Below, one piece after another: positions 31,910 through 35,674 of a DNA stretch of 43,925 nucleotides. The notes below the pieces were generated by a model that had not been told where the DNA came from, searched no databases, and was given only the letters and a program-made list of their open reading frames with translations. The stretch comes from Actinomycetota bacterium (lineage in GTDB: Bacteria; Actinomycetota; Acidimicrobiia; Spongiisociales; UBA4744), in the NCBI GenBank assembly GCA_013152275.1, contig JAADGS010000032.1, forward strand, positions 1-43,925, in the 5' to 3' direction. Every line of letters starts with the position of its first letter. Within the stretch, counting starts at the first letter, position 1. The position numbers and the translations under genes are program-made.

Positions 31910-32719
31910 TCACTTCGCCGCCCGGTAGGTGCCGAGGATGTGGAGATCGTCGATCGAGTGCGGGGGCGGGTCCAGGATCCGTGCCAGCCCGACCGGTCCC
32001 GGCTCGTGCAGCAGATCCACGTAGAAGCGATAGGACCAGGCAGTTCTCCCTGGCCTGGACTCGATGCGGGTCAGGTTGGCACCGCGCAGCCCCAGTTCGG
32101 TGAGAGCCAAGGCCAACGCGCCGGGGCTGTGCGCGGTCGAGAATGAGATCGAGCTCTTGTTGTCGTCTGGTCTGGCGCACGGCGCCCCGGGGGCGAGGGC
32201 CACGAACCGGGTGGCGTTGTGGTCACGGTCGACGACGTCGGAGAGCAGGACGCTCAGCCCGTAGCGCCGATGCGCGTCGGGAGGGGCCAGGGCAGCCTGT
32301 GTAGGGTCACGGTCCTCCGCGACCAGGCGCACGGCGCCGGCCGTATCGGGCACGGCGACCGGCTCCCATCCGCGGACGGTCAGTGTCTCACGGGCCTGAG
32401 CCAGCGCCTCGGGATGCGACAGCACGCGACGGATGTCGCAAGGTTGCGCACCAGGAAGACCGATGAGGGCGTGGCGTACCCGTCCGTAGTGTTCGGCCAC
32501 GATCGACGCATCGGCGGCGTCGAGTCTGTCGAGGACTTCGAGGATGCTTCCCGTCGTCGAGTTCTCGATGGGAACGACCAGCACGTCGACGTCGGCGTCG
32601 ACGAGGGCGGCGAAGGCCTCGGCGAACCCGTGCAGCCCCACCGCTTCGGCGTCCGGATACAGGTCCGTCACGGCCTGGTGGCTGTAGGAGCGTTCCTCTC
32701 CCTGGTATCCGACCTTCAT
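31910..32719 (-). CDS. pheA: Prephenate dehydratase
   Basis: This 269-residue enzyme converts prephenate to phenylpyruvate for Phe synthesis. The catalytic domain shows YQGEERSYSHQAV, VPIENSTTGSILEVLD and the NATRFVALA motif with its essential Thr. The C-terminal ACT domain, which binds Phe for feedback inhibition, has HSPGALALAL and LTRIESRPGRTAWSYRFYVD. It is monofunctional, with no chorismate mutase domain; that activity is fused to the DAHP synthase encoded upstream. ATG 32719 overlaps the tyrA stop in ATGA. It is the last gene of the leftward aroF-tyrA-pheA operon controlled by the attenuator at 34898-35018. Confidence 0.94.
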   Translation of the reverse strand: MKVGYQGEERSYSHQAVTDLYPDAEAVGLHGFAEAFAALVDADVDVLVVPIENSTTGSILEVLDRLDAADASIVAEHYGRVRHALIGLPGAQPCDIRRVLSHPEALAQARETLTVRGWEPVAVPDTAGAVRLVAEDRDPTQAALAPPDAHRRYGLSVLLSDVVDRDHNATRFVALAPGAPCARPDDNKSSISFSTAHSPGALALALTELGLRGANLTRIESRPGRTAWSYRFYVDLLHEPGPVGLARILDPPPHSIDDLHILGTYRAAK

Positions 32720-33765
32720 CGTTCGTCACCTCTGATTCGTGCCACGGTCAACGCTTCGGCATGCAACGCCCGGCACAGGGCCGGAATGTCGTCTTTGCGC
32801 ACGAACACCTGCAGCAGGCCACCGCCGCCATGAGGGGCGTGACGAAGTTGCAGGTCGCGCACGTCTACTCGGCTGTGCTCCAGCGCCCGGCCGACCGCGG
32901 CGAGTTCGCCTGGTCGGTCCAGCAGTGAGATCTCGATCGCGGCTACCGCCGGGTGAAGTCTCTCTTGGAGCCGGCCCGACTCGGCCAACGCCGCGGTGAC
33001 CTCTACGTGCGCCTCGGCCTTGAGGAGATCTGCCCACCGTTGCAGTCTGTGACCGAATCGTTCGATCGTCTCGATGGCAAGCTGTCGGTTCGCAGCAAGC
33101 AGATCGGACCACAGGCCGGGATCGGAGGCTGCCACCCGGGTGAGGTCGCGAAAGCTGCCACCGACGAGGGAGAGGTCTCCAAGTTCTGCCGCGGCTTGCG
33201 CGATCAGCGTCGAGGCCAGCAACTGTGGCAAGTGGCTGACCACGGCGATCGCCCGATCGTGCTCGTCTGCAGACATCCGCACCGGATTGGCTCCGAGTTG
33301 TCTCACGATCTCTTCGACTCGTTCCATGTCGTCGGAATCGGCTCCATCGGTGGTGAGGATCCAGGTTGCTCCATGAAACAACACAGGTGTGGCGGCGGCT
33401 GGGCCACTCACTTCTCGTCCCGCCATCGGATGGCCGGGCACGAAATGGCGGAGATGGGCTCCGGCGGCGATCACGGGGGTCTTGACACCGGCGACATCGG
33501 TCACCAGCACGTCGGTCGAGAGTTTTCGCAGCGTTCCAGGAACCGCCTGCGGCGGCCCGGCCAGAATGAGCAGGTCCAGATCTTCGGAGACGACGTCGTT
33601 CTCGGAGACGGCGATGCTGGCGACCGCACCTCGCTCGTGCGCCGCCTGCAGCGATGCGAGATCCGGGTCCCATCCGATGAGGTCCCATCCTGCTGCGGTC
33701 AAGCCGAGTCCGATCGACGAGCCGATCAGGCCGGTGCCGAGAACCCCCGCCGTGGGCCTACGCAC
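32716..33765 (-). CDS. tyrA: Prephenate dehydrogenase with ACT domain
   Basis: This 349-residue enzyme oxidatively decarboxylates prephenate towards Tyr. The NAD site is GVLGTGLIGSSIGLGL at the N-terminus; GHPMAGREVSG and VVSHLPQLLAS are the conserved catalytic-domain motifs. The C-terminal ~75 residues are an ACT domain (IEISLLDRPGELAAVG), suggesting feedback control. The start is GTG 33765, inside the last codons of aroF (8-base overlap), and the stop overlaps pheA. Strict overlap on both sides means the three enzymes are made together, which fits one attenuator responding to Tyr/Phe supply. Confidence 0.93.
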   Translation of the reverse strand: MRRPTAGVLGTGLIGSSIGLGLTAAGWDLIGWDPDLASLQAAHERGAVASIAVSENDVVSEDLDLLILAGPPQAVPGTLRKLSTDVLVTDVAGVKTPVIAAGAHLRHFVPGHPMAGREVSGPAAATPVLFHGATWILTTDGADSDDMERVEEIVRQLGANPVRMSADEHDRAIAVVSHLPQLLASTLIAQAAAELGDLSLVGGSFRDLTRVAASDPGLWSDLLAANRQLAIETIERFGHRLQRWADLLKAEAHVEVTAALAESGRLQERLHPAVAAIEISLLDRPGELAAVGRALEHSRVDVRDLQLRHAPHGGGGLLQVFVRKDDIPALCRALHAEALTVARIRGDER

Positions 33766-34852
33766 CAGTCCGACTCCTGCCTGCCGCTGCCGCGAGCGGT
33801 GTGAGCGAGTGACGCTGCGCTCTGCGGGATTGGTGCAGAATCGTTTCGAACAGTGCCCGCACCACCTGAGGGTCGAGTCCGGAGCCTTCCGCCTCCGCAG
33901 CCAGGCCTGCGAGGATTTCGGCTTCGCGACCGGGACTGTGCAGGGGCAGGCCGCGAGCCATTTTGGCTTGGCCGATCTCGAGCGAACGAGAGAGTCGCTG
34001 AGCGAGAAGGCGGAGGATCTGGCGGTCGATCCGATCGATATCCTCTCGAACCGAGACGATACCGAGTGCCTCCATGAGCTGCTCGAAACCGGCGGCGTCG
34101 AGCTGTTGTGGACCGTCGGACAGGGCCCGGTCCGGTTCTGGATGCACTTCGACCATCATGCCGTCGGCTCCGACGGCGCGTCCGGCGAGCGCGAACGGCA
34201 TGATCAGGTCTCTGCGGCCCGAAGCATGGCTCGGGTCGATGGTCACCGGCAGGTGACTGATGGCCTTTACGACCGGGACCGCTCCGATGTCGAGTGTATT
34301 CCGGGTGCTGGTCTCGAACGTTCGGATGCCGCGTTCGCACAGGACGACCTGGGCGTTTCCGCCATCCAGGATGTATTCGGCGGCGAGGAGCCACTCATCG
34401 ACGGTGGCGGCCAGCCCACGCTTGAGGAGAATCGGCTTGCCCGAACGAGCGACCGCGCGCAACAGAGCGAAGTTCTGCATGTTTCGGGAGCCGACCTGAA
34501 GCATGTCGACGTGGCTTGCCACGAGGTCGACGTCGGCCGGTTCCATCACCTCCGAGACCGTCGGCAGGCCCGTCCTCCGCCCGGCCTTCTCGAGGATGCG
34601 AAGACCTTCCGGGCCGAGACCCTGGAACGAGTATGGGGAGGTCCTCGGCTTGTAGGCACCGCCGCGCAGCATCGAAGCGCCACCGCGGGCGACGATCCCG
34701 GCGGTTCGCATCATTTGCGCCTCGCTTTCGATGGCGCAGGGACCGGCGATCACGGGGTAGGAGCCGTCGCCGAATTGCACGGGGCCGACTCGAACCACGG
34801 TCGTGGTCGAGTCTTCATTGCGATGACTCTTCAGTGCTGGCTGGCTGCTCAT
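33758..34852 (-). CDS. aroF: DAHP synthase (type I-beta) fused to chorismate mutase
   Basis: This 364-residue protein has a type I-beta DAHP synthase domain: AGPCAIES, RGGAYKPRTSPYSFQG, QVGSRNMQNF, PILLKRG and DPSHASG, covering about residues 20-260. From about residue 268 an AroQ-type chorismate mutase helix bundle follows (VREDIDRIDRQILRLLAQR, EIGQAK, RALFETILHQSRR). It thus performs the first step of the shikimate pathway and the branch-point step to prephenate, feeding tyrA and pheA downstream. In such fusions the mutase domain can also mediate feedback inhibition by prephenate. GGAG lies eight bases before ATG 34852. A 95-bp leader with hairpins separates it from the leader peptide stop. 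Confidence 0.94.
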   Translation of the reverse strand: MSSQPALKSHRNEDSTTTVVRVGPVQFGDGSYPVIAGPCAIESEAQMMRTAGIVARGGASMLRGGAYKPRTSPYSFQGLGPEGLRILEKAGRRTGLPTVSEVMEPADVDLVASHVDMLQVGSRNMQNFALLRAVARSGKPILLKRGLAATVDEWLLAAEYILDGGNAQVVLCERGIRTFETSTRNTLDIGAVPVVKAISHLPVTIDPSHASGRRDLIMPFALAGRAVGADGMMVEVHPEPDRALSDGPQQLDAAGFEQLMEALGIVSVREDIDRIDRQILRLLAQRLSRSLEIGQAKMARGLPLHSPGREAEILAGLAAEAEGSGLDPQVVRALFETILHQSRRAQRHSLTPLAAAAGRSRTGA

Positions 34853-34897
34853 GGTCTCCGGTCCTCTCTCAGGGGACCACGGCTCCGGGAATCAAGA

Positions 34898-34922
34898 AAC
34901 CCGGAGCCGTCGGCTCCGGGTT
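34898..34922 (-). terminator. Attenuator terminator of the aroF operon
   Basis: In the RNA (minus strand) segment 1, AACCCGGAGCC, pairs with segment 2, GGCTCCGGGTT, around a three-base loop. TTTCTTGATT follows, a moderately U-rich tail. Segment 1 can instead pair with the GGCCCGGGT (34974-34966) inside the leader-peptide gene: nine pairs with one bulged A. That alternative would prevent termination. A third copy of CCCGGAGCC (34889-34881) can also compete for segment 2. Confidence 0.75.
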
Positions 34923-34946
34923 GAAGGGGTTGTGTCGTGTGCCTAC

Positions 34947-35018
34947 CTAGTGGCGCGTTCCCTTCACCCGGGCCTCGGGCCCGGCGTAAAAGAACGTAAA
35001 GACGTAGGTGGCTCTCAT
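34947..35018 (-). CDS. Aromatic-amino-acid leader peptide of the aroF-tyrA-pheA attenuator
   Basis: This 23-codon frame, ATG 35018 to TAG 34947, encodes a peptide with the run T-Y-V-F-T-F-F-Y at residues 4-11, so five of eight consecutive residues are Tyr or Phe. These are the two end products of the operon downstream. Codons 12-18 form one hairpin (CCGGGCC/GGCCCGG, 34984-34968). A ribosome waiting for charged tRNA-Tyr or tRNA-Phe would cover its 5' arm, freeing the 3' arm to pair with segment 1 of the terminator. There is no Shine-Dalgarno; the promoter at 35028-35056 would start RNA within two bases of the ATG, giving leaderless translation, as is common in actinobacteria. Confidence 0.82.
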   Translation of the reverse strand: MRATYVFTFFYAGPEARVKGTRH

Positions 35019-35027
35019 CTGACGAGG

Positions 35028-35056
35028 AGCATAGCCACGTCGCGGCGGAGAGCCAA
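35028..35056 (-). promoter_or_regulatory. Probable promoter of the aromatic leader and aroF operon
   Basis: On minus, TTGGCT (35056-35051) and TATGCT (35033-35028) are spaced by exactly 17 bases. The expected start of RNA is A35020 or A35018, at the leader ATG. It is divergent from the DUF1697 gene. Confidence 0.6.
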
Positions 35057-35128
35057 GGAGTTCTTGTCGCGGCGCTTCCCATCACGGGGGCTCCCGGTCT
35101 TTGACCGAGCCGGGGGTAGCCTTGCACA

Positions 35129-35674
35129 GTGGCTACGTTCATCGCCCTGCTCCGCGGGGTCAACGTCGGCGGGCACAAGAGGGTCCCGATGGTGAGCTTG
35201 CGTGAAACCCTTCACAGGGCTGGGTACACGAACGTGGTCACGTACATCCAGTCGGGCAATGTCGTCTTCGATGCAGACGAGAATGGTCCGGACGCTCTGG
35301 CCAAGTCGATCGAGGCTGCTCTCACGTCCAAGTTCGGGTTCGACGTTCCGGTGATCGTCCGCACTTGCGACGAACTGGCCGCCGCGGCCAGTGTCAACCC
35401 CTATGTCGGTGTCGTCGACGACGCCCAGATCGGTATCGCCTTGCTGAAGCGAGTCCCCACAATCGACGACCCGATCGATCCGGCTGTGCACCGGCCAGAC
35501 GAGTTCACGCTCGTCGGCCGCGAGGTGCACTTGCACTGCCCCAACGGGTTCGGAAGAACGAAGCTCACGAACGCCTACCTGGAAGATGCGCTGGGAGTCG
35601 TCGCCACGACCCGCAACGTGCGAACCGTTCGCAAACTGCTTGGACTGAGCGACCGCCGGAAGTCTGCCGAGTAG
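35129..35674 (+). CDS. DUF1697 domain-containing protein
   Basis: This 181-residue protein matches DUF1697. Key segments are the N-terminal FIALLRGVNVGGHKRVPM, the following VVTYIQSGNVVFDA, and LHCPNGFGRTKLTNAYLE near the C-terminus, with TTRNVRTVRKLL at the end. The function is unknown; the family is widespread in actinobacteria as single genes. The GTG at 35129 has no Shine-Dalgarno, but TAGCCT lies just upstream, so translation may be leaderless. It is divergent from the aroF operon, with no evidence of a functional link. Confidence 0.9.
   Translation: MATFIALLRGVNVGGHKRVPMVSLRETLHRAGYTNVVTYIQSGNVVFDADENGPDALAKSIEAALTSKFGFDVPVIVRTCDELAAAASVNPYVGVVDDAQIGIALLKRVPTIDDPIDPAVHRPDEFTLVGREVHLHCPNGFGRTKLTNAYLEDALGVVATTRNVRTVRKLLGLSDRRKSAE

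Follow-up and report, generated by a model that had tools for sequence, protein, structure and literature searches.

The question raised by this locus is whether a short reading frame rich in tyrosine and phenylalanine codons, lying upstream of an operon of the Phe/Tyr branch, governs that operon by transcription attenuation. By the window we mean the whole stretch of DNA analysed, 43,925 nucleotides long. The operon itself is clear, as family matches bear out the gene names given in the initial annotation: aroF, whose product fuses DAHP synthase to chorismate mutase (DAHPS-CM), followed by tyrA and pheA. Chorismate mutase models match the aroF product at residues 265-347.

33758..34852, minus strand: aroF, 364 aa, type I-beta DAHP synthase carrying chorismate mutase as its C-terminal domain (PRK12595, TIGR01361)
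32716..33765, minus strand: tyrA, prephenate dehydrogenase, overlapping the end of aroF (family match)
31910..32719, minus strand: pheA, prephenate dehydratase, with an ATGA overlap with tyrA (family match)

Upstream of aroF, on the same strand, we observed a promoter-like pair of hexamers followed closely by the short frame.

35051..35056, minus strand: -35 hexamer TTGGCT (sequence, with spacing kept in relatives)
35028..35033, minus strand: -10 hexamer TATGCT (sequence, with spacing conserved in relatives)
34947..35018, minus strand: leader peptide ORF of 23 codons plus TAG, MRATYVFTFFYAGPEARVKGTRH (sequence and conservation)

The frame opens with ATG at 35018 and its TAG ends at 34947. Codons 5, 7, 9, 10 and 11 specify aromatic residues (five of eight), and we treat the frame as a predicted translated ORF carrying codons for the amino acids that the operon produces. 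A shuffled window is expected to hold 0.05 frames that start with ATG or GTG, span 12-40 codons and include five or more aromatic residues within eight; two were seen here, the leader and one ending in WWW. The two hexamers are separated by a spacer of 17 nt, with 9 nt between the -10 box and the ATG, and among relatives in the order the end of the -10 box lies 6-11 nt from the leader start. From the position of the -10 box, transcription would start at about 35019-35021, and the leader mRNA is predicted to be leaderless or nearly so, with a 5' UTR of a few nucleotides at most.

Within and beyond the frame lie five segments whose pairings can be arranged in alternative ways, together with a U-tract.

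34978..34984, minus strand: segment 1, CCGGGCC, 5' arm of hairpin 1:2, in codons 12-14 (alignment and covariation)
34966..34974, minus strand: segment 2, GGCCCGG(GT), 3' arm of hairpin 1:2 and 5' arm of antiterminator 2:3 (covariation)
34912..34921, minus strand: segment 3, ACCCGGAGCC, 3' arm of the antiterminator and 5' arm of the terminator (alignment)
34899..34908, minus strand: segment 4, GGCTCCGGGT, 3' arm of the terminator (3:4 helix in the alignment)
34890..34899, minus strand: interrupted U-tract TTTCTTGATT of the intrinsic terminator (sequence)
34881..34889, minus strand: segment 5, CCCGGAGCC, potential partner of segment 4 in helix 4:5 (duplex z-scores and covariation)

Segment 1 adjoins the last control codon, immediately 3' of codon 11, and both arms of hairpin 1:2 fall within leader codons 12-18. 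Segment 2 pairs with segment 3 (ACCCGGAGCC) over nine pairs with one bulge, and the alternative partner of segment 3 is segment 4 (GGCTCCGGGT); with segment 3 common to both helices, antiterminator and terminator are mutually exclusive. The initial annotation had described the nine bulged pairs between the 3' arm of the hairpin and segment 3, and had placed the leader frame, promoter, hairpin and terminator; all of these can be read on the minus-strand sequence at the positions it gave. A U-tract follows the hairpin in most of the related loci, is broken in the window (TTTCTTGATT) and is nearly missing in one relative (L015).

We compared the region across 40 DAHPS-CM fusion loci of the same order, the window included, which represent at least seven families. 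At 34 of the 40 we see the leader together with the promoter region and both hairpins. Of the 39 loci that have a leader start, 36 show a promoter pattern at the correct distance (TT[G/T] 16-19 nt before TAnnnT, itself 6-11 nt before the leader start); among shuffled upstream regions the figure is 0.4%. In a single genus, g7, five loci (L036, L037, L039, L040 and L041) keep the promoter, the start codon and a terminator-like hairpin, but the aromatic run and segment 5 are gone, as if the attenuator there were decaying. At one further DAHPS-CM ortholog (L042), a leader was looked for and none was seen. Such comparison shows that the frame, its choice of amino acids, the competing helices and the promoter geometry are conserved.

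At E<=0.01, a covariance model built from the 34 loci matched 82 of the order's 138 genomes, with some of the matches at pheS sites, and in a class-level sample its strong matches (E<1e-10) were confined to the order. Among the weak matches in other classes, L166, L168, L169, L173, L175, L177, L181 and L182, judged one by one, were tRNA-plus-terminator false positives, as was L201 from the scan of the order. Rfam gave no match at the gathering score for the window and none up to E=1 for positions 34750-35150, so that none of the leader families listed by Rfam, Trp_leader among them, matches this leader by covariance model. The covarying loci are numerous enough to build an RNA family model from them.

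The helices are conserved in pairing more than in letters. For antiterminator 2:3, 88.9% of the cells in the 34-row alignment hold standard pairs and 30 cells are changed on both sides, a count to be read with the relatedness of the rows in mind, as changed cells are not independent events. The pair types are CG and UA at one position and CG, AU, UA and GC at another, the changes on both sides falling at columns 56-110 and 57-109; where more than one pair type occurs at one position, a single change cannot account for them. The 2:3 covariation score of 0.214 compares with 0.122 in shuffles, none of 500 reaching it, and it drops to 0.07 or less when the alignment is slid by one column. Terminator 3:4 is paired in 90.9% of cells, with compensatory changes, and hairpin 1:2 also shows compensatory change. 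Compensatory changes of this kind had been anticipated for relatives in the initial annotation, and they are present in all three helices.

To follow the effect of a stalled ribosome, we folded the transcript to the end of segment 3 with the ribosome placed codon by codon, in a static folding model that assumes the ribosome to cover 12 nt past the A site's first base. The fold was ended at segment 3 because termination is decided during transcription, which makes equilibrium folding through segment 4 a poor test. In the window, 2:3 has a predicted probability of 0 without a ribosome. Placing the A site at codon 5 raises it to 0.48, codons 6-12 give 0.98-1.0 and codon 13 gives 0.79; from codon 14 up to the stop it never exceeds 0.05, and at the stop itself it is 0. 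The aromatic codons 5, 7, 9, 10 and 11 thus all fall inside the range, codons 5-13, where a stall is predicted to bring about antitermination. At all 34 loci, a ribosome at the best aromatic codon gives 2:3 a probability above 0.7, and one at the stop gives about 0. In about half of the relatives, 2:3 is predicted even without a ribosome, so that the off state there would depend on folding order. Codon-by-codon folding supports the attenuation mechanism, short of proof.

Taken together, these features suggest the following course of events. The transcript would begin at or beside the leader ATG. With both tRNAs charged, the ribosome would reach the stop codon, 2:3 would not form, the 3:4 terminator would, and transcription would end near 34890. 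Were tRNA-Phe, tRNA-Tyr or both in short supply, the ribosome would stall at codons 5-11 and cover segment 1; with segment 1 masked, segment 2 would take segment 3, the terminator would be blocked and RNA polymerase would enter the operon. Once read-through has occurred, segment 4 of that transcript would be left free to pair with the conserved segment 5. The locus displays the features by which a trp-type attenuator is recognized, namely a leader ORF with codons for the product, an intrinsic terminator, an exclusive antiterminator and, in folding only, a 2:3 helix that depends on stalling. Conservation, covariation and stall folding all favour this reading, which the initial annotation had also proposed, and we consider it very probable that a trp-type ribosome-mediated transcription attenuator matches aroF-tyrA-pheA to how much charged tRNA-Phe and tRNA-Tyr is available. 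We infer stalling, termination and the sensing of both amino acids from these features.

The amino acids specified by the leader bear on what is sensed. The run before the hairpin contains both Tyr and Phe in all 34 DAHPS-CM leaders, as had been expected of relatives if the run were functional, and Trp in none; residue totals in these runs are 98 F, 54 Y and 0 W. A reading that differs from ours in scope would have attenuation respond in practice to Phe alone, the Tyr codons contributing little, as in the AroR leader of Corynebacterium glutamicum. Besides the greater number of Phe residues, it can point to position -1, which is Phe in 31 of the 34 leaders, and to the account in PMC11802643, citing Neshat 2014, according to which Phe limitation raised aroF transcription in C. 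glutamicum and Tyr limitation reportedly did not; by this analogy the contribution of Tyr may be small here as well. Against it stand the presence of Tyr in every run, the Tyr at position -4 in 18 leaders and the fact that the last control codon of the window, codon 11, is itself Tyr. Several genomes of the order, moreover, carry leaders of the same architecture at pheS (L184-L191, L193, L195, L196 and L202, two of the pheS sites being confirmed by family scan), and these contain Phe without Tyr or Trp, as in MKSLLQRQHFAFTGPGARASRMS. Tyr codons are thus apparently kept only where tyrosine is a product, and we think a response to Phe alone rather unlikely. Upstream of the pheS gene of the window's own genome, no such leader was found.

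An attenuator sensing both amino acids also accords with leaders found at other genes. Stand-alone DAHP synthases serve all three aromatic products. Leaders at stand-alone DAHPS genes in other classes of the phylum (most of L209-L229, L233, L164, L167, L174 and L176) include Trp in 20 of 21 cases, for example MKRYFWFFG and MSRSFGFWFFYGG; they are attenuator-like and carry all three aromatic amino acids, as in MKRYFWFFGTSGSPEADAS. In the same genome as the window, a complete trp operon (L258; G000:C12:2400-11200, minus strand) runs trpE-G-D-C-F-B-A and then into an overlapping DAHP synthase gene, and upstream of it are a leader, MSMRNTCSVQQWWWSSR, with Trp-Trp-Trp and then a terminator; on its sequence, this is a Trp-specific DAHPS under a putative Trp attenuator. 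Leader composition thus tracks the downstream gene, as is expected from codon-specific stalling.

Several side observations were made during this survey. In one genome of the phylum, 7 Mb in size, a stand-alone chorismate mutase gene is preceded by a leader, MSDRRSYFYYGTGSPAAVGRA, and a terminator (L180). A Cys-rich leader, MSPSTVCVCCCCRRFRVRPG, followed by a terminator, precedes a cysteine synthase gene (L197; G120:C55) and is likely a Cys attenuator. The codon just 5' of segment 1 is TTT in 30 of the 34 DAHPS-CM leaders and, as codon 11, TAC in the window; TTT accounts for only about 9% of codons for Phe in seven of the window's genes, and the preference for it may reflect a slow codon or a structural constraint. 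The window's genome has six WhiB genes, and among 14 control genomes WhiB occurs only in C. glutamicum, which points to an actinobacterial genome.

Segment 5, a conserved element downstream of the terminator that was missing from the initial list of segments, sits directly 3' of the U-tract, between the terminator and the aroF ribosome-binding site. Compared with shuffled downstream sequence, the 4:5 duplex is stronger, its z averaging -2.5 over 37 loci (three eroded g7 loci included) and lying below -2 at 26 loci. Its outermost pair is G-C at 17 loci, C-G at 13, A-U at 2 and G-U at 1, pairing being kept at 33 of the 34 loci, a count somewhat inflated by taking the best-matching register at each locus; that segment 4 base finds a partner in segment 3 at only 20 of the 34. 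The segment is missing from the eroded g7 loci. As a general trait of actinobacterial aromatic attenuators it is unsupported, being found with only 2 of 20 stand-alone DAHPS leaders (mean z -0.4). Since segment 5 is transcribed only after RNA polymerase has cleared the terminator, it is unlikely to decide termination. Our tentative suggestion, offered with well under even confidence, is that it captures the released arm: in such a five-segment attenuator, helix 4:5 might lock the read-through form, stabilise the mRNA or tune aroF expression. A read-through lock and a role in mRNA stability are both guesses. Were the five-segment arrangement true, it would be an element that, to our knowledge, is undescribed for classical attenuators, and a testable extension of the textbook scheme.

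The position, conservation and covariation with segment 4 of this element might equally be cited for control exerted chiefly at the initiation of aroF translation, the ribosome-binding site being opened or closed by segment 5 together with the 3' terminator arm, and at four loci (L028-L030 and L032) the SD is indeed more open in the antitermination state. Over 31 loci, however, SD accessibility shows no difference between the two states (Wilcoxon p=0.40), leaving translational coupling through segment 5 unsupported; in the window the change runs the opposite way, and a U-tract after the hairpin in most loci speaks for termination. Translational control as the main mode is accordingly very improbable. 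That nothing is regulated here, the frame being a short ORF that arose by chance next to an ordinary terminator belonging to the upstream region, is scarcely credible: the imperfect U-tract and the loss of the leader in one genus would fit it, but it appears largely refuted by what at least seven families conserve (the frame, the amino acids it specifies, the spacing of the promoter and three helices in competition) and by the 0.05 such frames expected per window.

Transcription attenuation at aroF-tyrA-pheA would thus provide a comparative case of leader-peptide control on the Phe/Tyr branch in a little-studied actinobacterial order. It also suggests an end-product logic within one genome, with a Trp-Trp-Trp leader on a trp operon that has its own DAHPS and a Tyr/Phe leader on the DAHPS-CM operon. 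Isozymes of the entry enzyme would then be tuned by product-specific leaders and not by repressors such as TyrR and TrpR.

We found no report in the open-access literature of an attenuator on this type of operon. Seliverstov et al. (2005) described classical attenuators upstream of trp, trpS and leuS in Actinobacteria, as well as candidate leaders and terminators upstream of ilvB, whereas in the genomes then available no conserved RNA structures were found upstream of phenylalanine/tyrosine operons (PMC1262725). Leaderless attenuator peptides, for their part, are routine in the phylum. In Streptomyces lividans, the transcripts of trpL1, leuL1, leuL2 and ilvL start at the start codon, a start like the one predicted here, and none of the eight leaders listed is for Phe or Tyr (PMC8079986); for C. 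glutamicum ilvB, a leaderless attenuator peptide is mentioned through a reference cited in PMC4046766. The initial annotation had called a leaderless attenuator sensing two amino acids unusual; a leader with codons for both is indeed present, but its rarity was overstated, given these peptides and the known Phe-Tyr-Phe leader of C. glutamicum aroF.

That system is the closest in kind. The aroF gene of C. glutamicum has an attenuator with an AroR leader containing Phe-Tyr-Phe (Neshat et al. 2014, as presented in PMC11802643 and PMC4046766), and like the arrangement predicted here it combines ribosome-mediated attenuation of an actinobacterial DAHP synthase gene with a short leader carrying Phe and Tyr codons. 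Compared by description, the locus studied here differs in that its DAHP synthase is fused to chorismate mutase in an operon with tyrA and pheA, its run of aromatic residues is longer, at five in eight, and the terminator is followed by a fifth segment. With the trp, pheA and pheST attenuators of Escherichia coli it shares the logic of 1:2, 2:3 and 3:4 helices, control codons right before segment 1 and predicted stalling at codons for the operon's own product; unlike them, it has a predicted leaderless or near-leaderless start, specifies two amino acids and carries the extra segment 5. It is best viewed as a well-conserved addition to the classical amino-acid attenuators and not as a switch of a new kind, segment 5 being perhaps a variant feature.
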